Below are positions 7,001-45,815 of a DNA stretch of 64,000 nucleotides, piece by piece (within the stretch, counting starts at the first letter, position 1; each line of letters starts with the position of its first letter). Both the position numbers and the translations under genes were made by a program. Below the pieces are notes generated by a model. The model ran no database searches and had not been told where the DNA came from. It saw nothing but the letters and a program-made list of their open reading frames with translations. This DNA comes from Acetobacteraceae bacterium AT-5844. GTDB lineage: Bacteria; Pseudomonadota; Alphaproteobacteria; Acetobacterales; Acetobacteraceae. The stretch spans positions 1-64,000 of the forward strand of contig JH599934.1 of assembly GCA_000245075.1 (NCBI GenBank). The letters run 5' to 3'.

Positions 7001-8758
7001 ATCGCCAGCTACGAATGGAGCCTTGGCGGCAGCGAGCTGGCGGAGGGCGTCTTAGTCGAAGCAGCGCTTGCTGCCGGCCGCCACCACGCCATTACCCTGA
7101 CCACCACGGACGCAGATGGTGCGACTTCCAGCGATCGTGTGAACGTGGAGGTCGTCTCCAGGGACCGTGTTCTGGCGCATGAGGATTTCTCGGGTGACCT
7201 GTCCCGCTGGACCATGGTGGATGAAGGCGATCTCGGCGGCCCGTCCGACTGGTCCATCGTGGATGGGCGTCTGCGGCAGGATGGCGACATCCACAGCCAG
7301 CAGCTGACCTCCAACTGGAATGCCAGCAACAACGACAAGTGGAATGCCGGCTGGAGCCCGCTGGGCGACGTGGTGTATGGCCTGCGCAAGGGCACTTATG
7401 CACTCTACAACGATGACGCCGCGAAGGACTGGCAGAACTATTCGGTGGAAGCGACGTTGCGCACCGAGGACACTCAGGGCATCGGCCTGCTGTTCCACTA
7501 CAAGGACGCCCAGAACTACCTGAAGCTGGAGCTGGACCGTGACGCCGGCCTGATCCAGATTCTGCGCATGCAGGATGGGCGTGAGGACCTCGTGGCTCGC
7601 ACGCTGAACGTTTACGATGTCGGCGCCGACATGCGCCTGCGTGTTGACGTGCAGGATGGCAAGGTGCAGGCGTGGATGGACGGGGAAGCCATCTTCGCCT
7701 ATCCCGCTGACACGAACCTGGAGCCGGGTGGCACCATCGGCCTTTACTCCTGGGGCAGCCAGGGCGTCAGCTTCGATGACGTCACCGTCATCCAGCTTGA
7801 GGATGTGGCGCAGCCGGCGACGCCGATCGCAGCGGGTCCTGAAAGCGGCCTGATCCTTGGCACCGTCGGGAACGATCACTTTATCGGCGGCGAGGGCCAT
7901 GACATCGTCGGCTATGCAGGGCTCCGCGCCGCGCACGATCTGAGCTTCACCGCCGGGTTGCTGCAGGTTTCAGGGGGAGAAGGCAACGACCTTATCGAAG
8001 GTGTCGAAACAGTACGGTTCCTGGACGCGAGGCTGGAGCTTTCCGCGGACGGCGATGCGCATCTGATCAACCGCCTGTATCAGGGCGCGTTGGGGCGCGA
8101 CGCCGATGCTGCCGGGCTGGCCTTTTGGGATACGCAACTCGGACGTGGCATGTCCCTGGCGGAGATCTCGACCGCCATCATGCAGTCCGAAGAGGCCCAG
8201 AAGGGAGCCAGCGTGACGGACGAGGCCTTTGTTCAGAGCCTCTATCGTACGTTGCTTGGCCGGGATGCGAGCGAGGCGGAGACGGGCTTCTGGACCGATG
8301 GTTGGGCACGGCAGGATGCCCTGCGTGGCATTGCGGTGTCGCAGGAGGCCGTGGCCTTCGACGGTGATACGCCGCTGATGGTGGCCGATTACGACATGCT
8401 GCAGGTCGCGCGCGCCTACCAGGTGCTGCTCGGCCGCGATGTGGATCAGGACGGCTTGCTGTATTGGGAAGGCCGTTTCGGTTCCGAGCAGCCGGGAGAG
8501 GTGCTGGCCACCATTGCGGACTCGGCGGAGTTCACCGCCCGGGCTCATGAAGGGGGGCTGGACAATGTCGCCTTTGTCGAACGGCTTTACGACGACGCAT
8601 TCAGCCGTGAGGCGTCGGCAGAAGACATCGGCTACTGGACGGAGCGGCTGAACAGTGGCGAAGATGATCGCACGGAGGTCGCGATTGCCTTTGCCCAGGC
8701 CATGGAAGGCGAGGGCGCCATGCAGCGGCTGGCGACGGATGGCTTCGTCTTCGCCTAA
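4070..8758 (+). CDS. Giant multidomain calcineurin-like metallophosphoesterase with LamG/DUF1080-like modules and C-terminal DUF4214-like repeats
   Basis: The product has 1562 residues. An N-terminal beta module (about 10-85) precedes a metallophosphoesterase domain (about 90-395) with PDTQD at 97-101 (D-x-Q in place of D-x-H), GDVTYN at 135-140, GNHD at 167-170, H261 and SGHN at 317-320. Then come a PKD-like module (434-517), a LamG-like fold (577-720), a DUF1080-like beta sandwich (777-944), a second PKD-like (945-1028) and a second DUF1080-like module (1030-1242). Residues 1262-1325 are Gly/Asp-rich (GNDHFIGGEGHD) and end in the GVETVRFLD phrase seen near type I secretion substrates. Four DUF4214-like repeats (xLYxxxLGRxxxxxGxxxW) fill about 1330-1560. 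No N-terminal signal is visible, which fits type I export to the surface. A GGAG site precedes the ATG. The substrate is unknown. Confidence 0.85.
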   Translation: MATPENPIMDMLVRRGEEARVIDLDAHFGSGMSYRVETSKGDIVAATVVDGALTLDFAALGHSDIRVVATDSLGVETTDSFRVRVAGENAYTIAVLPDTQDYTLNPSLNATFAKMTQWLADNQESHNIRFVTHVGDVTYNNLDREWNVAKDAMSILDGKIPYALLPGNHDIAPGGSASERTDDKLSEYFSPEDAAARDGSFGGVYDKEPDSYQNNYHTFTAPDGTSWLVLSLEFGPRDDVLRWAGDVIEGHMDHRVIITTHGYMAVDGRTGPLTERLTGENGGTSYGVGNDIRGAADGDRIWTELAGKYPNVAFTFSGHNFGDGAQTQVNLGAGGQPVHQMFVNYQNGIAREITGNGDDSLGRNGGNGAIRLVVIDPENNTVSTETYFVELDDYLDGFRVQEMMDREGLTGAYIGHQEEFTNVDLSTPPAFSLAKAGADLFLSTEAESTLVNLDGSGSLLAEGSAHSILWKNADGDIIATGLKPQLELSGGQHVLTLEVTNAAGLTTRDEVRVTVSTPATLLAENFNDGDAAGWAAPPRDIGVSFGTAAELGLPALAGGEAGVLAFPLFEQNQWVQLDPEVGGQNGSGLVTSYSLVMDLLVKDGEAWTSLFQTALGNNNDAEIYLENNGDGTAGIGISGNYQGSFTYGEWHRLGLTFDRQGDTVLLKKYIDGVKVGEQTLTDAGRFAVDAEKGLLLFAEPNKATSGGYVSHVVFADSVLGEDVVAGFGGAQAGGIMDASAPISGATQFGFENGRVQAEIGGGKMAVVQPPAETPLKVVGTIHSADGSEPEGTALEGRLLDRSNGEDNILVWEQEGAANWQDYTLGATLRSLDTDVFGVVFRWQDADNHYRLTLDAAGDARKLVKVQGGVETVLAEVSQGYRIDVDMALRVAVTGNEIHVLLDGHDVFGGPVADADPLASGTVGVLSDRQKGASFDDIQVTQTTLTAYAGADMRLIDLDGDGSALATLKGHGSFGPADIASYEWSLGGSELAEGVLVEAALAAGRHHAITLTTTDADGATSSDRVNVEVVSRDRVLAHEDFSGDLSRWTMVDEGDLGGPSDWSIVDGRLRQDGDIHSQQLTSNWNASNNDKWNAGWSPLGDVVYGLRKGTYALYNDDAAKDWQNYSVEATLRTEDTQGIGLLFHYKDAQNYLKLELDRDAGLIQILRMQDGREDLVARTLNVYDVGADMRLRVDVQDGKVQAWMDGEAIFAYPADTNLEPGGTIGLYSWGSQGVSFDDVTVIQLEDVAQPATPIAAGPESGLILGTVGNDHFIGGEGHDIVGYAGLRAAHDLSFTAGLLQVSGGEGNDLIEGVETVRFLDARLELSADGDAHLINRLYQGALGRDADAAGLAFWDTQLGRGMSLAEISTAIMQSEEAQKGASVTDEAFVQSLYRTLLGRDASEAETGFWTDGWARQDALRGIAVSQEAVAFDGDTPLMVADYDMLQVARAYQVLLGRDVDQDGLLYWEGRFGSEQPGEVLATIADSAEFTARAHEGGLDNVAFVERLYDDAFSREASAEDIGYWTERLNSGEDDRTEVAIAFAQAMEGEGAMQRLATDGFVFA

Positions 8759-24077: not shown

Positions 24078-24772
24078 TCCGCAGCGAAACGCAAGGACGG
24101 TTGCGCCTGCTCCATCTTTCTCGGCCGGAGAAGCGCAACGCTCTCGATTCCGGCATGGCCGAGGGGCTGATCGCCGCGCTCCGTCAGGCTGAGAAAGAGG
24201 ATGATGTCGCCGCCATTGTGCTGGCCGCCGACGGACCACTGTTCTGCGCTGGCGCCGACCTCGGCGAACGGAAGGCGCTGGCGGGCGACCCGGCGGCGCT
24301 CGCACGCCGTGGCGTTTTGAGCGAGACGTTATTGCTGGCGCCGGGCGAAATCGGAAAGCCTGTCGTCGCAGCGGTGCACGGTGCCGCATTAGGAGCCGGA
24401 GCAGCTCTCGCACTCTGCTGCGACGTGATGGTGATGGCCGAGGATGCCAGCCTGGGTTTTCCCGAGGCCCGACATGGCATGTTACCAGCGCTGATGGCGC
24501 CCGTGCTGCGCCCGCGCCTCCCTCCTGCCACGCTGTTCCGCCTGCTGGCTACTGGTGCACCATTGCCCGCGGCTGAAGCCCTGTCCCTTGGCCTCGCCGC
24601 CGCTGTTGTGCCGCAGGGCGGTCTTCTGGCCGAGGCCGCCGCCCTGGCGGAAGCCGCCGCCACCTTGCCGGTGCCGCGCCTGCGCGCGCTGAAGCGCCTC
24701 TGCGCCGCCGCACCGGCCCCGCTCGCCGAAGGCTTCGCCATGGCGCGGGCCATTGCCCAGGAGATCGCATGA
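24074..24772 (+). CDS. Enoyl-CoA hydratase/isomerase-family protein (second copy)
   Basis: The 232-residue protein is shorter than the usual 255-265. SRPEKRNAL marks the start of the crotonase fold, and PLFCAGADLGE and AALGAGAALALCCDV form the oxyanion hole. The first catalytic Glu position (GGGxE) is Ala here; the second is kept in FPEARHGMLP. It may therefore act as an isomerase, hydrolase or specialised hydratase. It overlaps both neighbours by 4 bases. Confidence 0.82.
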   Translation: MIRSETQGRLRLLHLSRPEKRNALDSGMAEGLIAALRQAEKEDDVAAIVLAADGPLFCAGADLGERKALAGDPAALARRGVLSETLLLAPGEIGKPVVAAVHGAALGAGAALALCCDVMVMAEDASLGFPEARHGMLPALMAPVLRPRLPPATLFRLLATGAPLPAAEALSLGLAAAVVPQGGLLAEAAALAEAAATLPVPRLRALKRLCAAAPAPLAEGFAMARAIAQEIA

Positions 24773-25965
24773 AGCCCTTGGAAGGTCTTGTCATCCTCGA
24801 CCTGTCGCGCGTGCTCGCATGCCCCTTCGCCACCATGCTGTTGGCTGAGATGGGCGCTGAGGTCATCAAGGTCGAGCAACCCGGCAGCGGCGACGAGACA
24901 CGCAGCTTCGAACCCTTCGCGGAAGGGGAGGGAGGCAGTGTCAGCGGTTACTACATGGCTTGCAACCGCACCAAGCGCTCCATCACCGTGAACATGCGGC
25001 ATGAGGAAGGGCGCAAGATCCTGCGCGACCTCGCTGCGCAGGCCGATGTGCTGGTGGAGAATTTTCCGGTGGGCACGCTCGCGCGGCGAGGACTGGACTG
25101 GCCGTCGCTGCAGGCGGTGAACCCGCGCCTGATCTATCTCTCCTGCACCGGCTTCGGCCAGAGCGGGCCTTACGCGAAGCGAAAGGGCTACGATACCGTC
25201 TTCCAGGCCATGGGTGGCATCATGGGACTGACGGGGGAGCGTGGCGGTGGGCCGGTGAAGCCCGGCCTGCCGGTGGCAGACTTGTCTTCTGGCCTTTGGG
25301 TCGCGATTGCTATCCTCTCCGCCTTGCAGGGCCGCAGCCGCACCGGCAAGGGAGGGCATGTCGACGTGTCGATGTTCGACGCACAGGTGGCATTGCTGAC
25401 CATTGCTGCCGCCCGCCACTTCGCTCTCGGCGAGGTTCCGCCTCGCCTGGGCACGGAACATCCAGGCCGGGTGCCCAGTGCCAGCTTCCGCTGTGCGGAT
25501 GACCGCTATCTCCACATCACCGCCAGCGACCAGCATTGGGCACAACTCTGCGCGGCACTTGGTCTTTCCCAACTGGCCGAAGACCCTTCGCTGTCCACCA
25601 ACTCCGGCCGCGTCGAGCATCGGGAGCGGGTGATGGCTGCGATGAGCGATGCACTCGCAAGACTTCCGCGAGGAGATGCCTTCGCGAAGCTGGATAGTGT
25701 CGGTGTTCCGGCCGGCCCCGTGCTGGCACTCGACGAGGTGCTCAGCGACGAGCATGTACAGGCGCGTGGCATGGTGCAGCGCTTCGATCACCCTGTGCTC
25801 GGCAGTTTTCCGGCACTGCGCAACCCTCTGCGCTTCGAGGGCTGGGAGAATCCTGAGCTGGGCCGACCGCCTTTGCTGGGTGAGCATACGGAGGCGGTGC
25901 TGTCGCAACGCCTTGGAATGGATGCGGCGCGCATCGCCGCGCTGAAGGAAGCAGGTGCGCTATGA
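24769..25965 (+). CDS. Class III CoA-transferase (CaiB/BaiF family)
   Basis: The 398-residue protein shows the family opening LEGLVILDLSRVLACPFATM, the CoA-contact phrase VIKVEQPGSGDETR, and the catalytic aspartate in LPVADLSSGL near residue 171. Formyl-CoA transferase numbering places it similarly. It moves CoA from a donor thioester to an acid, activating the pathway substrate or recycling CoA from a product. An acyl-CoA synthetase is also present in the operon, so two activation routes are available. Confidence 0.92.
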   Translation: MKPLEGLVILDLSRVLACPFATMLLAEMGAEVIKVEQPGSGDETRSFEPFAEGEGGSVSGYYMACNRTKRSITVNMRHEEGRKILRDLAAQADVLVENFPVGTLARRGLDWPSLQAVNPRLIYLSCTGFGQSGPYAKRKGYDTVFQAMGGIMGLTGERGGGPVKPGLPVADLSSGLWVAIAILSALQGRSRTGKGGHVDVSMFDAQVALLTIAAARHFALGEVPPRLGTEHPGRVPSASFRCADDRYLHITASDQHWAQLCAALGLSQLAEDPSLSTNSGRVEHRERVMAAMSDALARLPRGDAFAKLDSVGVPAGPVLALDEVLSDEHVQARGMVQRFDHPVLGSFPALRNPLRFEGWENPELGRPPLLGEHTEAVLSQRLGMDAARIAALKEAGAL

Positions 25966-37752: not shown

Positions 37753-38946
37753 TCAACGGCCGCAGGCCAGGGTGCCGAAAATCTCCTCCTCATCCTGGCC
37801 CAGCGCCGGGGCGCCGCTGCGGATGGCGCCGGGCGTGCCGGAAAGGCGCGGCACAGGGGCGTGCATGGGCACCGTGCCAAGGCCCGGTACTTCCCGTTCC
37901 ACCAGCACGCCCCGCCCCCGGACATGGGCATCCGCCGCGAAGCCGGCGGGATCGTAAACCGGCCCGACCGTCACCTCGGCCTTCTCGAAGAAGGCCAGGT
38001 TCTCAGCCAGGCTCTTCTGGCCAATGAAGGCGCCCACGATGGCGTCCACCTCGTCCACATGGTCCAGCCGGTCGGCATTGGTGCGGAAGCGGGGGTCATC
38101 GATCATGTCCGCACGGCCGATGGCGCGGAACAGCCGCTCCGCCATGGCCTGGGTGGAGGCCGAGAGGGCGACATACTGGCCATCGCTGGTGAGATAGACA
38201 TTGCGCGGCGCCGTGATGCTGACGCGGTTGCCGGAGCGGGAGGGGGAGCGGCCCGTCTGCGCGAAGATCGCCGCATCCGGCCCCAGTACCGAGTGCAGGG
38301 GTTCCAGCAGGGAGAGGTCGATCACCTGGCCCCGCCCATCCGGGCGTTCCGCCTCCCGCAGCGCCGCCACGGTCGCGAAGGCGCCGGAGAGGCCGGCCAC
38401 CATGTCCGCCAGCGCCATGTTGGGCAGGGCAGGGGGCTTGTCGGCGAAGCCGTTCTTGGCGGCGAACCCGCTCATCGCCTCCACCAGCGAGCCAAAGCCG
38501 GGGCGGCTGGCATAAGGCCCGGTCTGCCCGAAGCCGCTGACGCGCACGATCACCAGCTTCGGGTTGAGGGCCAGCATCTGCTCCGGAGAGAAGCCCGCCG
38601 CCTCCATGGTGCCGGGGCGGAATCCTTCCACCAGCACCTGCGCGGTGGGGATGAGCCGGGTGAGCAGCCCCTTCCCCTCCGGCGTGCGCAACTCCAGGCG
38701 CAGGCTGCGCTTGTTGCGGCCATAGACCTCCCACCACAGGGATTTGCCCTCCTCCTTCCAGTGACGGAGGGGATCGCCCTCGGGGGGTTCCAGCTTGATC
38801 ACTTCCGCGCCGAAATCGGCCAGCTGCAAGGTCAGCATGTTGCCGGCCACGAGGCGGGAGAGATCCAGCACGCGGATGCCATCGAGGGCGGGTGGGCGGG
38901 CGGTGCCCGGGCCGTCAGTCCCCGGGCTGTCAGTAAAAATCGTCAT
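37753..38946 (-). CDS. Class III CoA-transferase (CaiB/BaiF family), last gene of ABC/lyase operon
   Basis: The 397-residue protein opens with LDGIRVLDLSRLVAGNMLTL. The CoA phrase is VIKLEPPEGDPLRHW, and the catalytic Asp is D181 in MALADMVAGL. It is closely similar in layout and wording to the other CoA-transferase of this operon (39858-41108; ADLSRLVAGN..., GFGSLVEAMSGFA versus GFGTLIEGFAGFA), indicating duplication. It probably moves CoA between a dicarboxylate and a product acid, supplying or draining the CitE-like lyase encoded 21 bases upstream. Confidence 0.92.
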   Translation of the reverse strand: MTIFTDSPGTDGPGTARPPALDGIRVLDLSRLVAGNMLTLQLADFGAEVIKLEPPEGDPLRHWKEEGKSLWWEVYGRNKRSLRLELRTPEGKGLLTRLIPTAQVLVEGFRPGTMEAAGFSPEQMLALNPKLVIVRVSGFGQTGPYASRPGFGSLVEAMSGFAAKNGFADKPPALPNMALADMVAGLSGAFATVAALREAERPDGRGQVIDLSLLEPLHSVLGPDAAIFAQTGRSPSRSGNRVSITAPRNVYLTSDGQYVALSASTQAMAERLFRAIGRADMIDDPRFRTNADRLDHVDEVDAIVGAFIGQKSLAENLAFFEKAEVTVGPVYDPAGFAADAHVRGRGVLVEREVPGLGTVPMHAPVPRLSGTPGAIRSGAPALGQDEEEIFGTLACGR

Positions 38947-38967
38947 GAAGTCTCCTCGCCGCGCGCC

Positions 38968-39861
38968 TCAGGCCGCGCGCGCGGCGATGGCGCGGGCGCG
39001 GGCCAACAGGGCTTCCGCCCGGCGCACGATGGGAATGTCGATCATCTTGCCGTCGATGGCAAAGGAGCCGCGCCCCTGCGCCGCGGCCTCCCGGTCCAGC
39101 GCCACGATCTTCTCCGCTTCGGCGACCTTCTCGGCGGAGGGGCTGAAGCCTTCGTTCAACACCGGCACCTGCGACGGGTGGATCGCCGAGGCCCCCACGA
39201 AGCCGAAGGAGGCCGAGCGCCGCACGATACGCGCATAGGCGGCGAGATCGGAGAAATCGGCCACCGTGCTGATGGTGCCGAGCGGCATGATGCCGGCCGC
39301 CGTCGCCGCCTGTAGAATTTGCTGCTTCGGCATCAGCAGCACTTCCTCCGTCGGCTCGCCGCCGATAGCGGTCGCATAGTCCTCCGCGCCGAGGGAAAGG
39401 CCGACGAGGCGGGGCGTGGAGCGCGCGATGGCATGGGCCTGCGCCAGCGGCCCCGGCGCCTCGATCAGCGCCACGAAACGGATATTGCCCTCCGGCATGC
39501 CGCGCTTCTGCTCCAGGCGGGAGACCAGCTCATCCAGCAGGCGCAGATGATCCGGCCCCTCGGCCTTCGTCACCATGATGGCATCAACGCCCGGAATGAT
39601 GGCGGCCTCCAGGTCCCGCACCGCATCTTCCAGCGGCTGGTTGATGCGGACGAGAATGTCGGATTGTCCCTCCCGCCGCAGCCGCGCCACGGCGGCCTCC
39701 ACCTTGCGGCGGGCCTCGGGCTTGTCGGCGGGGGCGATGCTGTCCTCCAGGTCGAGCTGGATGGCATCCGCGCCGCGCTCATGCGCGCGGGCCAGGAAGC
39801 GCTCCACATTCACCGGCACGAACAGGCCGGAGCGCCAGACCGGATTCCGGCGCGCGCTCAT
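38968..39861 (-). CDS. HpcH/HpaI aldolase / CitE-like CoA-ester lyase
   Basis: This 297-residue TIM barrel of the citrate lyase beta/malyl-CoA lyase family has RSGLFVPVNVERFLARA at the N-terminus and QLDLEDSI carrying metal-binding acid residues. LVRINQP gives the phosphate-binding Arg, SLGAEDYATAIG another metal acid, and GASAIHPSQVPVLNEGF the C-terminal family phrase. Such enzymes split malyl-, citramalyl- or beta-methylmalyl-CoA into acetyl-/propionyl-CoA plus glyoxylate or pyruvate. It overlaps the upstream CoA-transferase by 4 bases. No citrate lyase alpha or gamma gene is present, so a free-standing CoA-ester lyase is favoured. Confidence 0.88.
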   Translation of the reverse strand: MSARRNPVWRSGLFVPVNVERFLARAHERGADAIQLDLEDSIAPADKPEARRKVEAAVARLRREGQSDILVRINQPLEDAVRDLEAAIIPGVDAIMVTKAEGPDHLRLLDELVSRLEQKRGMPEGNIRFVALIEAPGPLAQAHAIARSTPRLVGLSLGAEDYATAIGGEPTEEVLLMPKQQILQAATAAGIMPLGTISTVADFSDLAAYARIVRRSASFGFVGASAIHPSQVPVLNEGFSPSAEKVAEAEKIVALDREAAAQGRGSFAIDGKMIDIPIVRRAEALLARARAIAARAA

Positions 39862-41108
39862 GCCGACACCACCAGGCCGGAGGCCGTCGCGGCGTCGATC
39901 TCGGCCTGGGTGAGCCCCTGTGCGGCGAGGATCTCATGGCTGTGCTGGCCGAGGCGCGGCGCCGGCGTACGAATGGCGCCCGGAGTGCCGGAAAGCCGTG
40001 CCGGAACGGCATGCATGGGGAACTGGCCCATATCCTCGTCCGGATATTCCGCCAGCAGGCCGCGCGCATGGACATGACGGTCCGCCATGAAGCGGACGAT
40101 ATCGTTCACCGGGCCGATGGTGACCTCGGCGGCTTCGAAGAACGCCACGTTTTCCTCCAGTGTCTTTTGCGCGACGAAGGAGCCGATGATGGCGTCCAGC
40201 TCCTCGCCATGTTGCACGCGCAGCTCGTTGGTGCGGAAGCGCGGGTCGTCCACCAGCTCCCCCCTGCCGATGGAACGCAGCACGCGCTCCGCCATGCCCT
40301 GGGTGGAGGCGGAAAGGCAGACCCAGCCATCATCCTTGGTGCGATAGACGTTGCGGGGCGCGGCGCCGGTGGAGCGGCTGCCGGTGCGCGGCTTGGTCCG
40401 GCCGGTCAGGCGGTAATTCGCCGCCTGTGGGCCAAGGGCGGTGAAGAGCGGGTCCAGTAGCGGCAGGTCGATCACCTGCCCCTGACCGCCGCGCATTTCC
40501 ACCTCCCGCAGTGCCGCCATGGCGGCGAAGGCGCCGGTGAGGCCGGAGATGGTGTCCGCCAGATACATCGGCGGCAGCACGGGCTCACGATCGGCGAAGC
40601 CGTTCATGTCCGCGAAGCCGGCGAAGCCCTCGATGAGCGTGCCGAAGCCGGGGCGGCGGGAATAGGGGCCATCCTGCCCCCAACCGGAGATGCGGATAAT
40701 GACGAGCCCCGGCTCCAGCCTCAGCAGTTCCTCCGGTGGAAGGCCCATCGCCTCCAGCGTTCCCGGGCGGAAGCTCTCCACGAAAATGGAAGCGCCCGGC
40801 ACGAGCCTGCGGATGAGGGGGATGGCATCCTTGTGCCGGAAGTCGATGCACAGGCTGCGTTTGCCGCGGCCATGCACCTTCCAGGCGGTCTCCACGCCCC
40901 GTACCCGCCAGCCGCGCAACGTGTCGCCATCGCGCGGCTCCACCTTGTCCACGGTGGCGCCGAAATCCGCCAGGTGCTGAGTCAGCGTGTTGCCGGCGAC
41001 GAGGCGGGAGAGGTCCAGCACCCGCACGCCATCGAGCGGGCCGGCCACGCCCGGGGTATAATCGGCGCGGGGCAGGGGACTGGCGGCCGTTCCATCAGGC
41101 GGTGACAT
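39858..41108 (-). CDS. Class III CoA-transferase (CaiB/BaiF family)
   Basis: The 416-residue protein opens LDGVRVLDLSRLVAGNTL near residue 26; the catalytic Asp is D185 in MYLADTISGL, and the CoA phrase is VDKVEPRDGDTLRGW. The start at 41108 has GGGAGG 5 bases upstream and overlaps the ABC ATPase gene by 14 bases, so transport and activation genes are translationally linked. It is paralogous to the protein encoded at 37753. Two class III enzymes around one lyase suggests either two acids or two half-reactions. Confidence 0.92.
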   Translation of the reverse strand: MSPPDGTAASPLPRADYTPGVAGPLDGVRVLDLSRLVAGNTLTQHLADFGATVDKVEPRDGDTLRGWRVRGVETAWKVHGRGKRSLCIDFRHKDAIPLIRRLVPGASIFVESFRPGTLEAMGLPPEELLRLEPGLVIIRISGWGQDGPYSRRPGFGTLIEGFAGFADMNGFADREPVLPPMYLADTISGLTGAFAAMAALREVEMRGGQGQVIDLPLLDPLFTALGPQAANYRLTGRTKPRTGSRSTGAAPRNVYRTKDDGWVCLSASTQGMAERVLRSIGRGELVDDPRFRTNELRVQHGEELDAIIGSFVAQKTLEENVAFFEAAEVTIGPVNDIVRFMADRHVHARGLLAEYPDEDMGQFPMHAVPARLSGTPGAIRTPAPRLGQHSHEILAAQGLTQAEIDAATASGLVVSA

Positions 41109-42195
41109 CGGCGCCTCCCCGAAACAGAATTCCCCCTGTGCTGGGCAACCAGAGATGCAATTCATCCTCCGATGGCGGTTGGCGCGTCTCCAGCCTGAGC
41201 GTCGCGCCCGCGAGATCGAGCCCCACCTGCCACTGGCCCCCGACATAGGAGCGGCTGGTGACGCGCGTCGCGAGAACGGAGCCGCCGGCCGGTTCCGTGC
41301 CCGGGCGTGCCACCAGCATCTGTTCCGGCCTGAAGGCCAGGGTGACGCGGCTGCCGGCCGGGGTGGCGCTTTCCGAGAGGGCTTCCATCCGCTGGCCGTC
41401 GGCCAGTTCCAGCACCGCGCGGCCGCCGGCGGGCGTGGAATCCACGACGCGGGCGGGAAGGAAGTTGGTGGTGCCTATGAAGTCCGCGACGAAAGGATCG
41501 GCCGGGTGCTCGTAGATCTGCTGCGGCGTGCCGATCTGCGCGATATGGCCGCCATTCATCACCACGATGCGGTCGGAGAGCGAGAGCGCCTCGATCTGGT
41601 CGTGGGTGACGTAGATGGTGGTCAGCCGCAGCCGCGTCCGCAATTCCGCAAGCCAGGCGCGGGCACGGTCCCGCAGCTTGGCATCGAGGTTGGAGAGCGG
41701 TTCGTCCAGCAGCAGGATGGCGGGGCGATAGACGAGCGTGCGCGCCAGCGCCACGCGTTGCTGCTGCCCGCCGGACAGTTCATGCGGATAGCGTGCGGCG
41801 AAACGTTCCATTTCCACCAGCCCGAGCACTTCCTCGATGCGGCGCTTGCGCTCGGCAGCGGGAACTTTTCGCAGGGTAAGGGGGAAGGCGACGTTCTCGG
41901 CCACCGTCATATGCGGCCAGAGCGCATAGCTCTGGAAGACAAGGCCGCAATTGCGTGCCTCCGGCGGCAGGTAGATGCCGCGCGAAGCGTCGAAATAGAC
42001 CGTCTCGCCTACCTGGATGCGGCCGCCATCGGCGCGGTCCAGCCCCGCGACAGCGGCGAGGGTGGTGGATTTGCCGCAGCCGGAAGGGCCGAGCAGGGTG
42101 ACGAATTCGCCATCCGCCACATGAAGGTTGACGTCCTCGACGGCGGTGACGCCGCCGAAACGCTTGGTCAGACCTTGGATATTCAGGTCAGCCAT
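41095..42195 (-). CDS. ABC transporter ATP-binding protein, FbpC/PotA-like
   Basis: This 366-residue ATPase has Walker A GPSGCGKST at 36-44, the LSGGQQQR signature from 140, and Walker B LLLDEPLSNLD from 161. A C-terminal TOBE-like regulatory domain (about 285-355) is typical of importers for iron, spermidine, sugars and organic anions. It is coupled on one side to the permease (8-base overlap) and on the other to a CoA-transferase (14-base overlap). That arrangement points to an organic acid cargo more than ferric iron. Confidence 0.9.
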   Translation of the reverse strand: MADLNIQGLTKRFGGVTAVEDVNLHVADGEFVTLLGPSGCGKSTTLAAVAGLDRADGGRIQVGETVYFDASRGIYLPPEARNCGLVFQSYALWPHMTVAENVAFPLTLRKVPAAERKRRIEEVLGLVEMERFAARYPHELSGGQQQRVALARTLVYRPAILLLDEPLSNLDAKLRDRARAWLAELRTRLRLTTIYVTHDQIEALSLSDRIVVMNGGHIAQIGTPQQIYEHPADPFVADFIGTTNFLPARVVDSTPAGGRAVLELADGQRMEALSESATPAGSRVTLAFRPEQMLVARPGTEPAGGSVLATRVTSRSYVGGQWQVGLDLAGATLRLETRQPPSEDELHLWLPSTGGILFRGGADVTA

Positions 42196-43912
42196 GCAGC
42201 TTCACTCCGAAGATGCCGCGCACGGCGGCGATGCAGACGGCGATGACCGCGACCTGGATGGTCGCCAGCGCGGCGACGAGCCCCACCTCACCCTGCACCC
42301 ACAATTGCAGCAGGGCGGTGCCGATGACCTCGCTGCCAGGGGCGAAGAGGAAGATCGCTGTTGAATACTCCTTGAAGAAGGAGATGAAGAGAATGGTGAA
42401 GCAGCCGACGAGCGCCGGGCGCATCAGCGGCAGGAGGATGCTGCGGCTGGTGCGCCACCAATCCGCGCCTTGCACACGCGCCGCGCGGTCCAGATCCGGG
42501 CTTACCTGCATCAGCATGGGCGCGACGGCGCCAAGCCCCGCCGGGATGAACCGCATGGTGAAGGCAATCACCAGGATCCAGATGGAGTTGCGCAGGAAGC
42601 CAAGGCCCGGCAGCAATGCGAAAGCGTAGAAGAAGCCGATGCCGGCCACGACGCCTGGCACGGCGCGCGGGAACAGGGCGAGATATTGCAGCGTGCCGCG
42701 GAAGCGGAATTCCGAGCGTTGCACGACGATGGCGATGAGCGCGATGAGCGCCGTGGCCAGCGCGCCGCCGATAAGGCTGACGAGGAAGGAATTCCATACG
42801 GCCCGCGAATAGACGGGGTATTCGAAGATCTGTGTGAAATTGCCTGTCGTCAGCACCTCGCCAAGGGGAATCATGGGCGAGAGGAAAGAGGTAAAGGCAC
42901 GCAGCACGAGGGTGCCGATCGGCGCGATGACCGTGGCGACGATATAGAGCAACGACAGAATGAAGAGCGGCCAGCGCAGCGCGCCGAGGCGGAAGGGGCG
43001 CGGCCGGGTAGCCTTGCCGCCCAGCGTGATGAAGCGCCGCGTATTGCCGAGCATGCGCCCCTGCAACCAGACGAGGAAGCACACCACCACCAGCATCAGC
43101 GCCGCTGCCGTGGCCACCAGCCCGTGGTCCGGGCGGGGGGAGGAAACGCCGTTGTTGAAGAGGAAGGTGGTAAGGACAGGGATTCCGGCCGGGTCGCCGA
43201 AAATCAGCGGAATGGAAAGAAGTTCCAGCCCGATGGTGAAGTTCAGCACCGCACTATAGGCGATGGCGGGTTTCATCAATGGCAGGGTCACGCGCCAGAG
43301 CGTCCGCCCGGTGCGGGCACCCGAAACGCGCGCGGCTTCTTCCAGCGAGGGATCGGTGATGGTGGTGGAGGAGAGGCAGTAGATATAGGCCAGCGGGGCC
43401 TGGGACACGCCGGCGATCACCGCCATGCCCGTGAGGGAATAGAGCGTCCAGGGTGCATCGCCGAACAGCGATTGCCAGAGCAGGGTCACGTAGCCCGAGG
43501 GGCCATACACCGCATACCAGCCGAAGGAGAGCACCAGCGCCGAAAGGTAGAGCGGCCAGAGGAAGAACTCGCTCATCACCCGCGCCAGCGGAAGATCCGT
43601 GCGGCCGAAGAGGATGGCGGCAAGCGTGCCGATACCCTGTGCCACCACGGTTGTCAGCGCGGCCAGCAGCACGGTGTTCAGCAGTACCGTGCCGAAGCCT
43701 TCCGTGCGGGCCAGGCGCGCGAAGTTCGCCAGAGTCAGGTTGTATTCGTGGTCGTAGAGTGCGCCATCCAGCACCGATTGCAGCAGCACGGGCAGCAACG
43801 GCGCCGCCACCAGCACGAGCACCAGCAGCGCGGTGCCGTACTGGATGGGAATGGCGCGCGGGAAGGCCGGCTGCGCCGGCGGCGCCTCCGGCCGGTCGAG
43901 GGCCAGGCTCAT
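42188..43912 (-). CDS. ABC transporter permease, FbpB/ThiP-like (two fused permease domains)
   Basis: The 574-residue protein carries two BPD_transp_1 domains in one chain. Their EAA-type loops are EEAARVSGARTGRTLWRVTLP near residue 195-215 and DRAARVQGADWWRTSRSILLP near 485-505. About twelve helices are predicted. This architecture is standard for FbpB (ferric), ThiP and AEP/organophosphonate-type importers. It lies 4 bases after the binding-protein stop. Confidence 0.9.
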   Translation of the reverse strand: MSLALDRPEAPPAQPAFPRAIPIQYGTALLVLVLVAAPLLPVLLQSVLDGALYDHEYNLTLANFARLARTEGFGTVLLNTVLLAALTTVVAQGIGTLAAILFGRTDLPLARVMSEFFLWPLYLSALVLSFGWYAVYGPSGYVTLLWQSLFGDAPWTLYSLTGMAVIAGVSQAPLAYIYCLSSTTITDPSLEEAARVSGARTGRTLWRVTLPLMKPAIAYSAVLNFTIGLELLSIPLIFGDPAGIPVLTTFLFNNGVSSPRPDHGLVATAAALMLVVVCFLVWLQGRMLGNTRRFITLGGKATRPRPFRLGALRWPLFILSLLYIVATVIAPIGTLVLRAFTSFLSPMIPLGEVLTTGNFTQIFEYPVYSRAVWNSFLVSLIGGALATALIALIAIVVQRSEFRFRGTLQYLALFPRAVPGVVAGIGFFYAFALLPGLGFLRNSIWILVIAFTMRFIPAGLGAVAPMLMQVSPDLDRAARVQGADWWRTSRSILLPLMRPALVGCFTILFISFFKEYSTAIFLFAPGSEVIGTALLQLWVQGEVGLVAALATIQVAVIAVCIAAVRGIFGVKLHG

Positions 43913-43916
43913 CGGC

Positions 43917-45035
43917 TCAGCTCACGCCGTAGGTTTGCTTCCAGCGGTCGATGAAGGGCTGGTAGTCGGTGAGCGTCGCCGGGTTGTAATCGATAAAGGC
44001 GATGTTCTGCTCGCCGCCGACAGCCTCGGTGATGGAGCTGAAGGTATGGCGGATGTTCTCTCCGGGCTTCACATCTGGCCTTGCCGGCGTCAGGCCGCCA
44101 CGGCCAAAGCCCTGCTGGCCCTCTGCCGAGGCGATGTAGTCCAGCATCAGCTTGGCGGCGTTGACGTTGCGCGCACCCTTCGGGATGGCCATGCCCCGCA
44201 GGATGACGAGCTGCCCGTCCTGGATGAAGTTCCAGCCGAGGACACGCGCGCGGGCAGGGTCGTTCAGCCGTGGCCAGAAGGTGATGGCGGAGACAAACCA
44301 GCCAGCCGCGTATTCGCCCGAAGTGACCTTCTCGGTCATCGGGCCGCCGGAACGCTCCCAACGCGGTTGGGTGGGCGCGATCTGCTTGAACCACTCCCAC
44401 GCCTTGTCGCCATGCTTCTGCACGAAGCCGAAATTGGCCGAATAGCCGAAGCCGCCGAAATGCGCGCCATAGCTGGTGAGCTTATTGCGCCAGCGGCTGC
44501 GATTTTCCTCCGACAGGGTGACGAATTGCGCGAAGCTCTTCGGCTGCTGCGCCTCGGGCACCAGCATCTTGTTGAAGATGAAGACCAGCGGGTCCGCGGA
44601 GATGGTGTAGACGCCGGGCCAGGGCTTGGCCCATGCAGGCCAGGCGGCGGCTTCCGGTGACTCATAAGGCATCACCTCGTCGCGCCTCTGGAACTCGATC
44701 CAACCCGACGGATCGGCGGTGGCCAGCAGGTCCGCCGTGCGGCTGTTGGTGCCACGCTCCGCCAGGTATCGCTCGAACACTTCCCGCGAATTCGGCAGGT
44801 CCAGCGTCTCGACCTTGATCTTGGGATAGCGGCGGTTGAAGCCCTCCAGCACCGGCCGCCAGTTTTCGGCGGACATGATGGAGTAGATCAGCAGGCTGCC
44901 CTCGCGCTCGCCGCCGGCCACGACCTCCTGATAGCCCTGCGGGTACCCTGAAGGCGGGCCGCTCTGTGCACGCAGGGCGGTTGGCAAGAGAAGAGCAGGC
45001 AAGGCGAGGGCGCTACGGCGTCCGATCCCGTTCAT
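43917..45035 (-). CDS. ABC transporter solute-binding protein, FbpA/family 1-like
   Basis: The 372-residue periplasmic protein has the signal MNGIGRRSALALPALLLPTA, with cleavage after LRA near 23. The phrase SAENWRPVLEGFNRRYPKIKVE is typical of the ferric/spermidine/AEP-binding group. No adjacent Tyr-Tyr pair, a hallmark of many ferric-binding FbpA proteins, occurs in the sequence. The chosen ATG follows GGAGGA perfectly; an ATG at 45059 lacks a site. It is the first gene of the six-gene operon and divergent from a GntR/FCD regulator, so it probably defines the substrate later activated by the CoA-transferases. Confidence 0.88.
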   Translation of the reverse strand: MNGIGRRSALALPALLLPTALRAQSGPPSGYPQGYQEVVAGGEREGSLLIYSIMSAENWRPVLEGFNRRYPKIKVETLDLPNSREVFERYLAERGTNSRTADLLATADPSGWIEFQRRDEVMPYESPEAAAWPAWAKPWPGVYTISADPLVFIFNKMLVPEAQQPKSFAQFVTLSEENRSRWRNKLTSYGAHFGGFGYSANFGFVQKHGDKAWEWFKQIAPTQPRWERSGGPMTEKVTSGEYAAGWFVSAITFWPRLNDPARARVLGWNFIQDGQLVILRGMAIPKGARNVNAAKLMLDYIASAEGQQGFGRGGLTPARPDVKPGENIRHTFSSITEAVGGEQNIAFIDYNPATLTDYQPFIDRWKQTYGVS

Positions 45036-45089
45036 GGTCTTCCTCCCTGGAGGGGCCACCCTTGCGTTGAAGGCTCGACCCCGGCGCTC

Positions 45090-45112
45090 TTTGGCGCAAT
45101 TATTGGCGCCAA
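45090..45112. promoter_or_regulatory. Tandem dyad motifs, putative GntR operator
   Basis: TTTGGCGCAAT (45090-45100) and ATTGGCGCCAA (45102-45112) form two related sites 12 bases apart. The second contains the perfect 10-base palindrome TTGGCGCCAA. They lie between the divergent binding-protein (start 45035) and GntR (start 45171) genes. One-turn spacing on the same face of the helix suggests cooperative binding of two dimers. Confidence 0.55.
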
Positions 45113-45170
45113 CACGCTACGGTTGCCGGGACGCCTGGCGCAACCGTTTTCTTGGCAGGAACGAACACGC

Positions 45171-45815
45171 ATGGCCCGCCCCGTCCGCCCCCGTCGCGCC
45201 CTGGCCGCCGAGATCGCCACAGCCATTCGAGGCGGCGAATACCGTATCGGCGAGTGGTTACGGCAGGTCGATCTTGAAGAGCGGTTCGGCGCGACACGGT
45301 TCGATATCCGCGCGGCACTGGCGGAGTTGGTGCTGCGCCACACAGTGGAGCATGTGCCGAACAGGGGATTCCGCGTGGCCGCGCCGGACCGGCAGCGGGT
45401 GAGGGACACGCTGCTGGTGCGCGCCATGCTGGAGGTGGAGGCCGCGCTGGGTGCGCTGCCGCATCTGGACGCCGCCGCGCTGCAATTGCTGGAGGAAAAG
45501 GCGGATGCGTTCGACCGCGCGATCTCCGACGGCACGCCGGCCGCCCAGAGCGCCACCAATCTCGATTTCCATGATACGCTCTACGCCTTCTGCCCGAACA
45601 AGGCGCTGGTGGATCTCGCTATCGAGGTGCGTGACCGGTATCGGATGTGGCCGCTCGTGCTTTGGCCCTCCATGCGGGCGCTGCGGCACAGCGCGGAAGG
45701 GCACCGCGAGATCCTGGCCGCATTGCGGGCGGGTGCGGCGGCGGCGCTGGCCACCAGCGTCCGGGCGCATATCCTCAATTCCGAGGCCAACAAGGCGCAG
45801 GATGAGGACGCCTGA
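45171..45815 (+). CDS. GntR-family transcriptional regulator with FCD domain
   Basis: The 214-residue protein has a winged helix at about residues 8-70 (GEWLRQVDLEERFGATRFDIRAAL) and a helical FCD ligand-binding domain at about 80-205. NLDFHDTLYAFC and SAEGHREILAALRAG carry the usual metal-binding Asp/His residues. FCD regulators commonly respond to carboxylic acids. It is divergent from the ABC/CoA-transferase/lyase operon with tandem dyads between. ATG 45171 is chosen after AGGA; ATG 45123 would place 16 residues over the promoter region. Confidence 0.87.
   Translation: MARPVRPRRALAAEIATAIRGGEYRIGEWLRQVDLEERFGATRFDIRAALAELVLRHTVEHVPNRGFRVAAPDRQRVRDTLLVRAMLEVEAALGALPHLDAAALQLLEEKADAFDRAISDGTPAAQSATNLDFHDTLYAFCPNKALVDLAIEVRDRYRMWPLVLWPSMRALRHSAEGHREILAALRAGAAAALATSVRAHILNSEANKAQDEDA

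Follow-up and report, generated by a model that had tools for sequence, protein, structure and literature searches.

Import of a carboxylic acid, its transfer to coenzyme A (CoA) and cleavage of the ester by a CitE-type lyase are already known as steps, and the itaconate route is an example (PMC12290011). The described systems closest to the locus treated here are that route with its (S)-citramalyl-CoA lyases (RipC, Rv2498c, CLYBL), the malyl-CoA lyases (4l9y, 5ugr, 4l7z), CoA-transferase/CitE clusters linked to TctC or TRAP transporters, the succinate-glutarate/HMG CoA-transferase SUGCT, and the metal-citrate-binding protein MctA (PDB 7f6e to 7f6u, solved with Mg-citrate or citrate). The locus lies in a 64,000-nucleotide stretch ("the window"), positions 1 to 64,000 of contig JH599934.1 (C25 among our contigs) of the 5.19 Mb genome of Acetobacteraceae bacterium AT-5844, a member of the Roseomonas group. 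With a probability of roughly 60%, we consider that a five-gene core at this locus imports a single small di- or tricarboxylic acid that carries a hydroxyl group and breaks it down through a CoA ester. The kind of pathway is known. A literature search that covered few subscription journals returned no paper that seems to describe this gene set, its combination with an ABC importer of MctA type, the operator or the lyase clade.

The locus shares with the itaconate-route systems the order of CoA transfer and CitE-type cleavage, and the catalytic residues of the lyase. It differs from them in having no hydratase gene in the operon and an importer of the ABC type, and its lyase reaches 159.5 bits against the RipC itaconate lyase model (NF038242, cut-off 375), over which nothing in the genome scores. 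The TctC- or TRAP-linked clusters in the same family likewise pair a CoA-transferase with a CitE-like lyase and have a binding protein of the carboxylate type next to them, but the transporter is different and several carry a MaoC- or FAS1_DH-type gene.

Layout of the locus

The seven genes listed below are each an open reading frame at the coordinates given, and the spacings of the six minus-strand genes in the initial annotation (+4, -8, -14, -4 and +21 bases) were reproduced from the gene ends. Pfam returned the families assigned there: solute-binding protein, BPD permease, ABC ATPase with TOBE, CoA-transferase III twice, HpcH/HpaI-CitE, and GntR with FCD.

45171..45815, plus strand: divergent GntR/FCD regulator P0007 (Pfam, GntR+FCD)
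45091..45112, minus strand: candidate operator TTGGCGCCAATAATTGCGCCAA within the divergent promoter (conservation)
43917..45035, minus strand: solute-binding protein P0001, 372 amino acids, MctA-like fold, Arg-Arg (Tat-like) signal region (Pfam, alignments)
42188..43912, minus strand: ABC permease P0002, 574 amino acids, two BPD_transp_1 stretches in one chain (Pfam)
41095..42195, minus strand: ABC ATPase with TOBE domain P0003 (Pfam)
39858..41108, minus strand: class III CoA-transferase 1, P0004, conserved operon member (Pfam, conservation)
38968..39861, minus strand: CitE-like acyl-CoA lyase P0005, superfamily catalytic residues kept (Pfam HpcH/HpaI-CitE, alignment)
37753..38946, minus strand: class III CoA-transferase 2, P0006, accessory gene (Pfam; away from the lyase in related loci examined)

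Conservation of the five-gene core

When named genomes were searched with an alignment of the binding protein, 114 pattern matches resolved to 27 loci; because the search relied on two peptide patterns, more distant loci were missed. The loci were found through the binding protein alone. Permease, ATPase and class III CoA-transferase are present in all 27 and the lyase in 26, one of which (L065) is interrupted by a contig end. The order binding protein-permease-ATPase-transferase 1-lyase holds in 25 of the 27, and a GntR gene is divergent in 24. In Roseomonas sp. 18066 (L081) transferase 1 is the divergent gene instead, the locus of Stella vacuolata (L083) is without the lyase, and L068 is without the GntR gene. 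Seven of the loci are from Bradyrhizobium and one from a Hyphomicrobiales assembly. Genes outside the module mostly differ between loci, the commonest neighbour cluster occurring in 7 of 28 loci.

The binding protein itself is sporadic, exceeding the cut-offs used in 16 of 299 genomes sampled from the order and 8 of 385 from the class (own genome counted). In the reverse test, 14 of the 299 sampled genomes (again counting its own) held a transferase 1 match of at least 74% identity, and in all 14 the binding protein adjoins it; two weaker matches (67% and 63%) lie in other gene contexts with no adjoining binding protein. The forward and reverse tests are not independent, since some of the 14 strains recur in the 27-locus set. 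The association of the genes exceeds chance. The initial annotation had named a lack of joint conservation of transporter and CoA enzymes as part of what would refute its pathway; transporter, CoA-transferase 1 and lyase are in fact co-conserved with the divergent regulator. Of the six-gene order that it proposed to search for, five genes recur and the sixth, transferase 2, does not. Because the module, its own regulator and its operator are kept together in the Roseomonas group and in Bradyrhizobium, which we take to be different orders, the substrate is likely a real nutrient.

Loci with importer and CoA-transferase genes and no lyase were also seen, in Stella (L083, 8699-9754) and in another genome (L110, 10274-11464), near RTX calcium-binding repeat proteins.

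The CitE-like lyase

All seven catalytic or metal-related residues named by Zarzycki and Kerfeld (PMC3832036) are in the window lyase, as D37, E39, D40 (the Asp/Glu/Asp of the CitE-like superfamily), R72 (Arg), E134 (Glu), D161 (Asp) and D275 (the lid Asp). The lid residue is Asp, as in lyases; malyl-CoA thioesterases have Glu.

By sequence score the nearest solved lyases are the malyl-CoA lyases 5ugr and 4l9y, and the window enzyme has S156, at the position of M133 in Rv2498c, in common with the Rhodobacter malyl-CoA lyase. It departs from malyl-CoA lyases (MCL) at several other places. In PMC3832036, Ala167 is tied to propionyl-CoA binding in these enzymes and reported as 100% conserved in both MCL clusters; the window lyase has Glu at that position (E160), likewise E. 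coli CitE, CLYBL and Rv2498c. The same paper has a Pro and a Trp contacting the pyruvate methyl in HaloMS and says that they are conserved in malyl-CoA lyases; neither is kept in the window lyase, where the Trp aligns with S225, and the MCL insertion after strand 6 is absent from its alignment. RipC (3qll) also has Ala at the Ala167 position, so this position is a weak guide; the point slightly lowers the odds of the reading that we prefer and raises those of the malyl-CoA lyase alternative.

The substrate methyl of Rv2498c touches G135, M133 and V181, as given in PMC6689899. In the clade of the window lyase the V181-bearing loop is two residues longer, and a conserved Asp two residues before V181 is replaced by Gly (G195), which separates the window enzyme from the (S)-citramalyl-CoA lyases. 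All 38 rows of the clade (100/100), of which two are the window's own copy, have the longer loop and the Gly; the 10 rows outside it have neither. Several long single rows of this tree, including CLYBL, E. coli CitE and the malyl-CoA lyase, are of unsure placement, and the over-long open reading frame L051 was left out.

The lyase was also considered as a genuine citrate lyase, and this was rejected: it scores 163.2 bits against TIGR01588 (citrate lyase beta subunit, cut-off 443.4), no match in the genome exceeds the cut-off, and the operon genes match families other than those of the citD and citF partners. In genome G004, additional lyase pieces (L053, L054, L055) lie at contig ends, which suggests that repeated copies of the lyase gene broke its assembly. 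With the substrate identified, a lyase clade and a branch of binding proteins that carry only general names would gain a function.

The two CoA-transferases

PF02515 covers the full length of both transferases (358.6 and 373.4 bits). Class III (CaiB/BaiF) CoA-transferases have a conserved catalytic Asp, and D185 of transferase 1 is invariant in 11 aligned rows that include transferase 2. The best curated model for transferase 1 is succinate-glutarate CoA-transferase, at 238.8 bits far under its cut-off of 750; among solved chains 4ed9 is the best match and human SUGCT (9br6, 9br7) the second.

The initial annotation treated the pair of CoA-transferases as a feature of the pathway, and here it has to be amended, for only transferase 1 is conserved. 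Among the 25 relatives whose contig runs past the lyase (by just 0.7-1.0 kb in two cases), none has transferase 2 after it. The protein most similar to transferase 2 in 58 genomes (76%) is encoded between another CitE-like gene and that of a TRAP (DctP) binding protein, and transferase 2 pairs with it in the tree (99/98) outside the clade of operon transferases 1 (27 rows, 100/98). Before the trees were built, duplicates of the same protein were removed, as were transferases less than 40% identical to both copies in the window. Since transferase 2 is missing after the lyase in relatives and groups elsewhere in the tree, it is probably an added gene and not a defining part. Local duplication as its origin was rejected, because the tree places it outside the transferase 1 clade. 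It may be an acquired extra of this strain that widens the range of substrates or CoA donors. That the two proteins form a heteromer, in the manner of benzylsuccinate CoA-transferase, whose solved structure is of two related subunits, would fit their 58% identity and their positions on either side of the lyase; the relatives, however, keep transferase 1 with the lyase and do without the second gene there, and we hold a heteromer to be improbable.

In locus L045, a CoA-transferase III piece (8036-8569, 177 amino acids, profile positions 1-139 of 366) comes before the CitE-like gene and the closest match to transferase 2.

The importer and its binding protein

The closest fold to P0001 is MctA, nearer than the FbpA type, from a model built on 28 more diverse sequences (an earlier model from 10 similar sequences had a pLDDT of 42.1). 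FbpA ferric-binding proteins have adjacent Tyr-Tyr iron ligands. P0001 contains no YY dipeptide, as the initial annotation had observed, and this together with the fold fits its proposal of an organic acid ligand in place of free ferric iron; on the same two grounds ferric transport was rejected as the main role. The description "FbpABC-like" is loose, as the binding protein is nearer MctA. The six MctA positions mutated by its depositors (S26, D28, S79, S164, T199, Y221) align with I53, S55, A107, G194, G230 and A250 of P0001, none being kept, whereas the distant proteins L115, L116 and L117 keep 4, 5 and 5 of these citrate-site residues (read by eye). Permeases matching P0002 are labelled iron ABC transporter permeases in five annotated plasmid records, and identification of the substrate would correct these labels.

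In the signal region of P0001 the Arg-Arg pair R6 R7 is invariant in 10 aligned copies, a pattern that suggests Tat export.

Regulator and candidate operator

FCD proteins often bind carboxylates. In an alignment of 25 intergenic regions, those of 24 loci plus that of the window, TTGGCGCCAA stands at the matching place in 22, in Roseomonas relatives and Bradyrhizobium both. The exact ten bases are not found in L061, L066 and L082, which keep the TGCGCCAA half-site; this half-site is missing from the eight Bradyrhizobium and Hyphomicrobiales regions. As background, TTGGCGCCAA has 2 additional copies in 534 kb of the same sequences and was seen at 0.0002 per letter-shuffled region. The 22-base motif of the window has one exact match in the genome, the operator candidate itself. 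Four other places differ from it at 3 positions, and the reversed control pattern has no match in the genome. These results point to a regulator that acts locally. Promoter and terminator scans gave a yield not above that of shuffled sequences.

The probable acid and its proposed route

The three other CitE-type loci of the genome (L035, L036 and L037, on contigs C50, C57 and C65) all carry a dehydratase-type gene. That of L037 is MaoC; those of L035 and L036 were assigned through cluster membership with an L034 protein that weakly matches FAS1_DH_region (25.7 bits, cut-off 22). As the operon has no hydratase gene and these three loci have the dehydratase type, the acid is probably already hydroxylated. 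The same loci also have CoA-transferases, and L035 and L036 TctC-cluster genes.

On the reading that we prefer, an MctA-type binding protein and a fused-permease ABC importer would bring in the acid, possibly together with a bound cation. The class III CoA-transferase, to judge from its family, would form the CoA ester, probably from succinyl-CoA, and the residues of the lyase suggest that it splits the resulting 3-hydroxyacyl-CoA to acetyl-CoA and a 2-oxo acid, predicted to be pyruvate or larger and not glyoxylate. The GntR/FCD protein may sense the acid or a product and control both promoters through the conserved palindrome. The acid most likely has the form X-C(OH)(COOH)-CH2-COOH, as in citramalate, citrate or a relative. 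Among the acids named in the initial annotation citramalate stays a candidate; malate and methylmalate are disfavoured by the lyase residues, and mesaconate needs the hydratase that the operon is missing. A more specific version is offered tentatively: an undescribed catabolic route in which the diverged importer carries a hydroxy-tri- or dicarboxylate, perhaps complexed with a cation, and the lyase with its rebuilt pocket loop releases acetyl-CoA together with a 2-oxo acid that exceeds pyruvate in size, such as oxaloacetate. If true, the route would amount to catabolism of the citrate type that does without a citrate lyase complex, and on some rhizobial plasmids an adjoining RraA-family enzyme and hydroxyacid dehydrogenase would receive the oxo acid.

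Those plasmids come from 24 records with the binding protein, of which eight were opened, three being unannotated there and read by tblastn. In four of the eight loci, genes for a 2-hydroxyacid dehydrogenase and an RraA-family protein come after those of binding protein (42-44%), permease, ATPase, transferase and lyase. The RraA-family protein exceeds the cut-off of an unnamed subfamily; against 4-carboxy-4-hydroxy-2-oxoadipate aldolase/oxaloacetate decarboxylase, also its best solved match, it reaches 154.9 of 179 bits. Two other distant binding proteins (L112, L113) adjoin HpcH/HpaI aldolases. Both contexts fit 2-oxo-acid chemistry but leave the acid unfixed. A plasmid DNA search returned 110 records, but in no record did any one place cover 80% of the query (at most 6% in the rows listed).

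The alternatives differ in what is carried and what is made of it. The same module could serve malate or 3-methylmalate, with a functional malyl-CoA lyase releasing glyoxylate and acetyl- or propionyl-CoA. The nearest solved lyases and the shared S156 speak for this, but the missing Pro, Trp and insertion speak against it, as does E160 in place of the Ala that PMC3832036 reports as 100% conserved, even if RipC shares that Ala; we regard it as unlikely. The importer might instead carry a metal-hydroxycarboxylate chelate chiefly for the metal, leaving the CoA enzymes to dispose of the organic ligand. MctA, as the closest fold and a protein solved with Mg-citrate or citrate, lends itself to this, but with all six mutated MctA positions changed in P0001, the ferric Tyr-Tyr pair absent and a regulator of the GntR/FCD type, the proposal seems quite doubtful.

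A phosphonate such as 2-aminoethylphosphonate has to be considered because the curated models that score best with the binding protein, permease, ATPase and regulator are phosphonate-linked. All four scores are under their cut-offs (30.6 of 395.3, 130.1 of 593.25, 348.3 of 457.7 and 58.7 of 271.5 bits), on which ground phosphonate transport was rejected; no phosphonate enzyme was found among the neighbour genes scanned, and this ligand appears extremely improbable.

Neighbouring genes and related loci

The distant plasmid relatives of the importer L132, L135 and L136 lie near alpha/beta hydrolases, nitrilase-type hydrolases, and AtuA or erythronate genes. These surroundings hint at a broader family for import of acids or conjugates. 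In the window, a gene of the beta-keto acid cleavage enzyme family (BKACE, PF05853; 47235-48119, plus strand) lies 1.4 kb from the regulator; since no BKACE match was seen in the stretches fetched for the 27 related loci, the gene looks unrelated to the module. An additional CoA-transferase-like gene, with 31% identity to transferase 1, lies at 24769-25965 on the plus strand.
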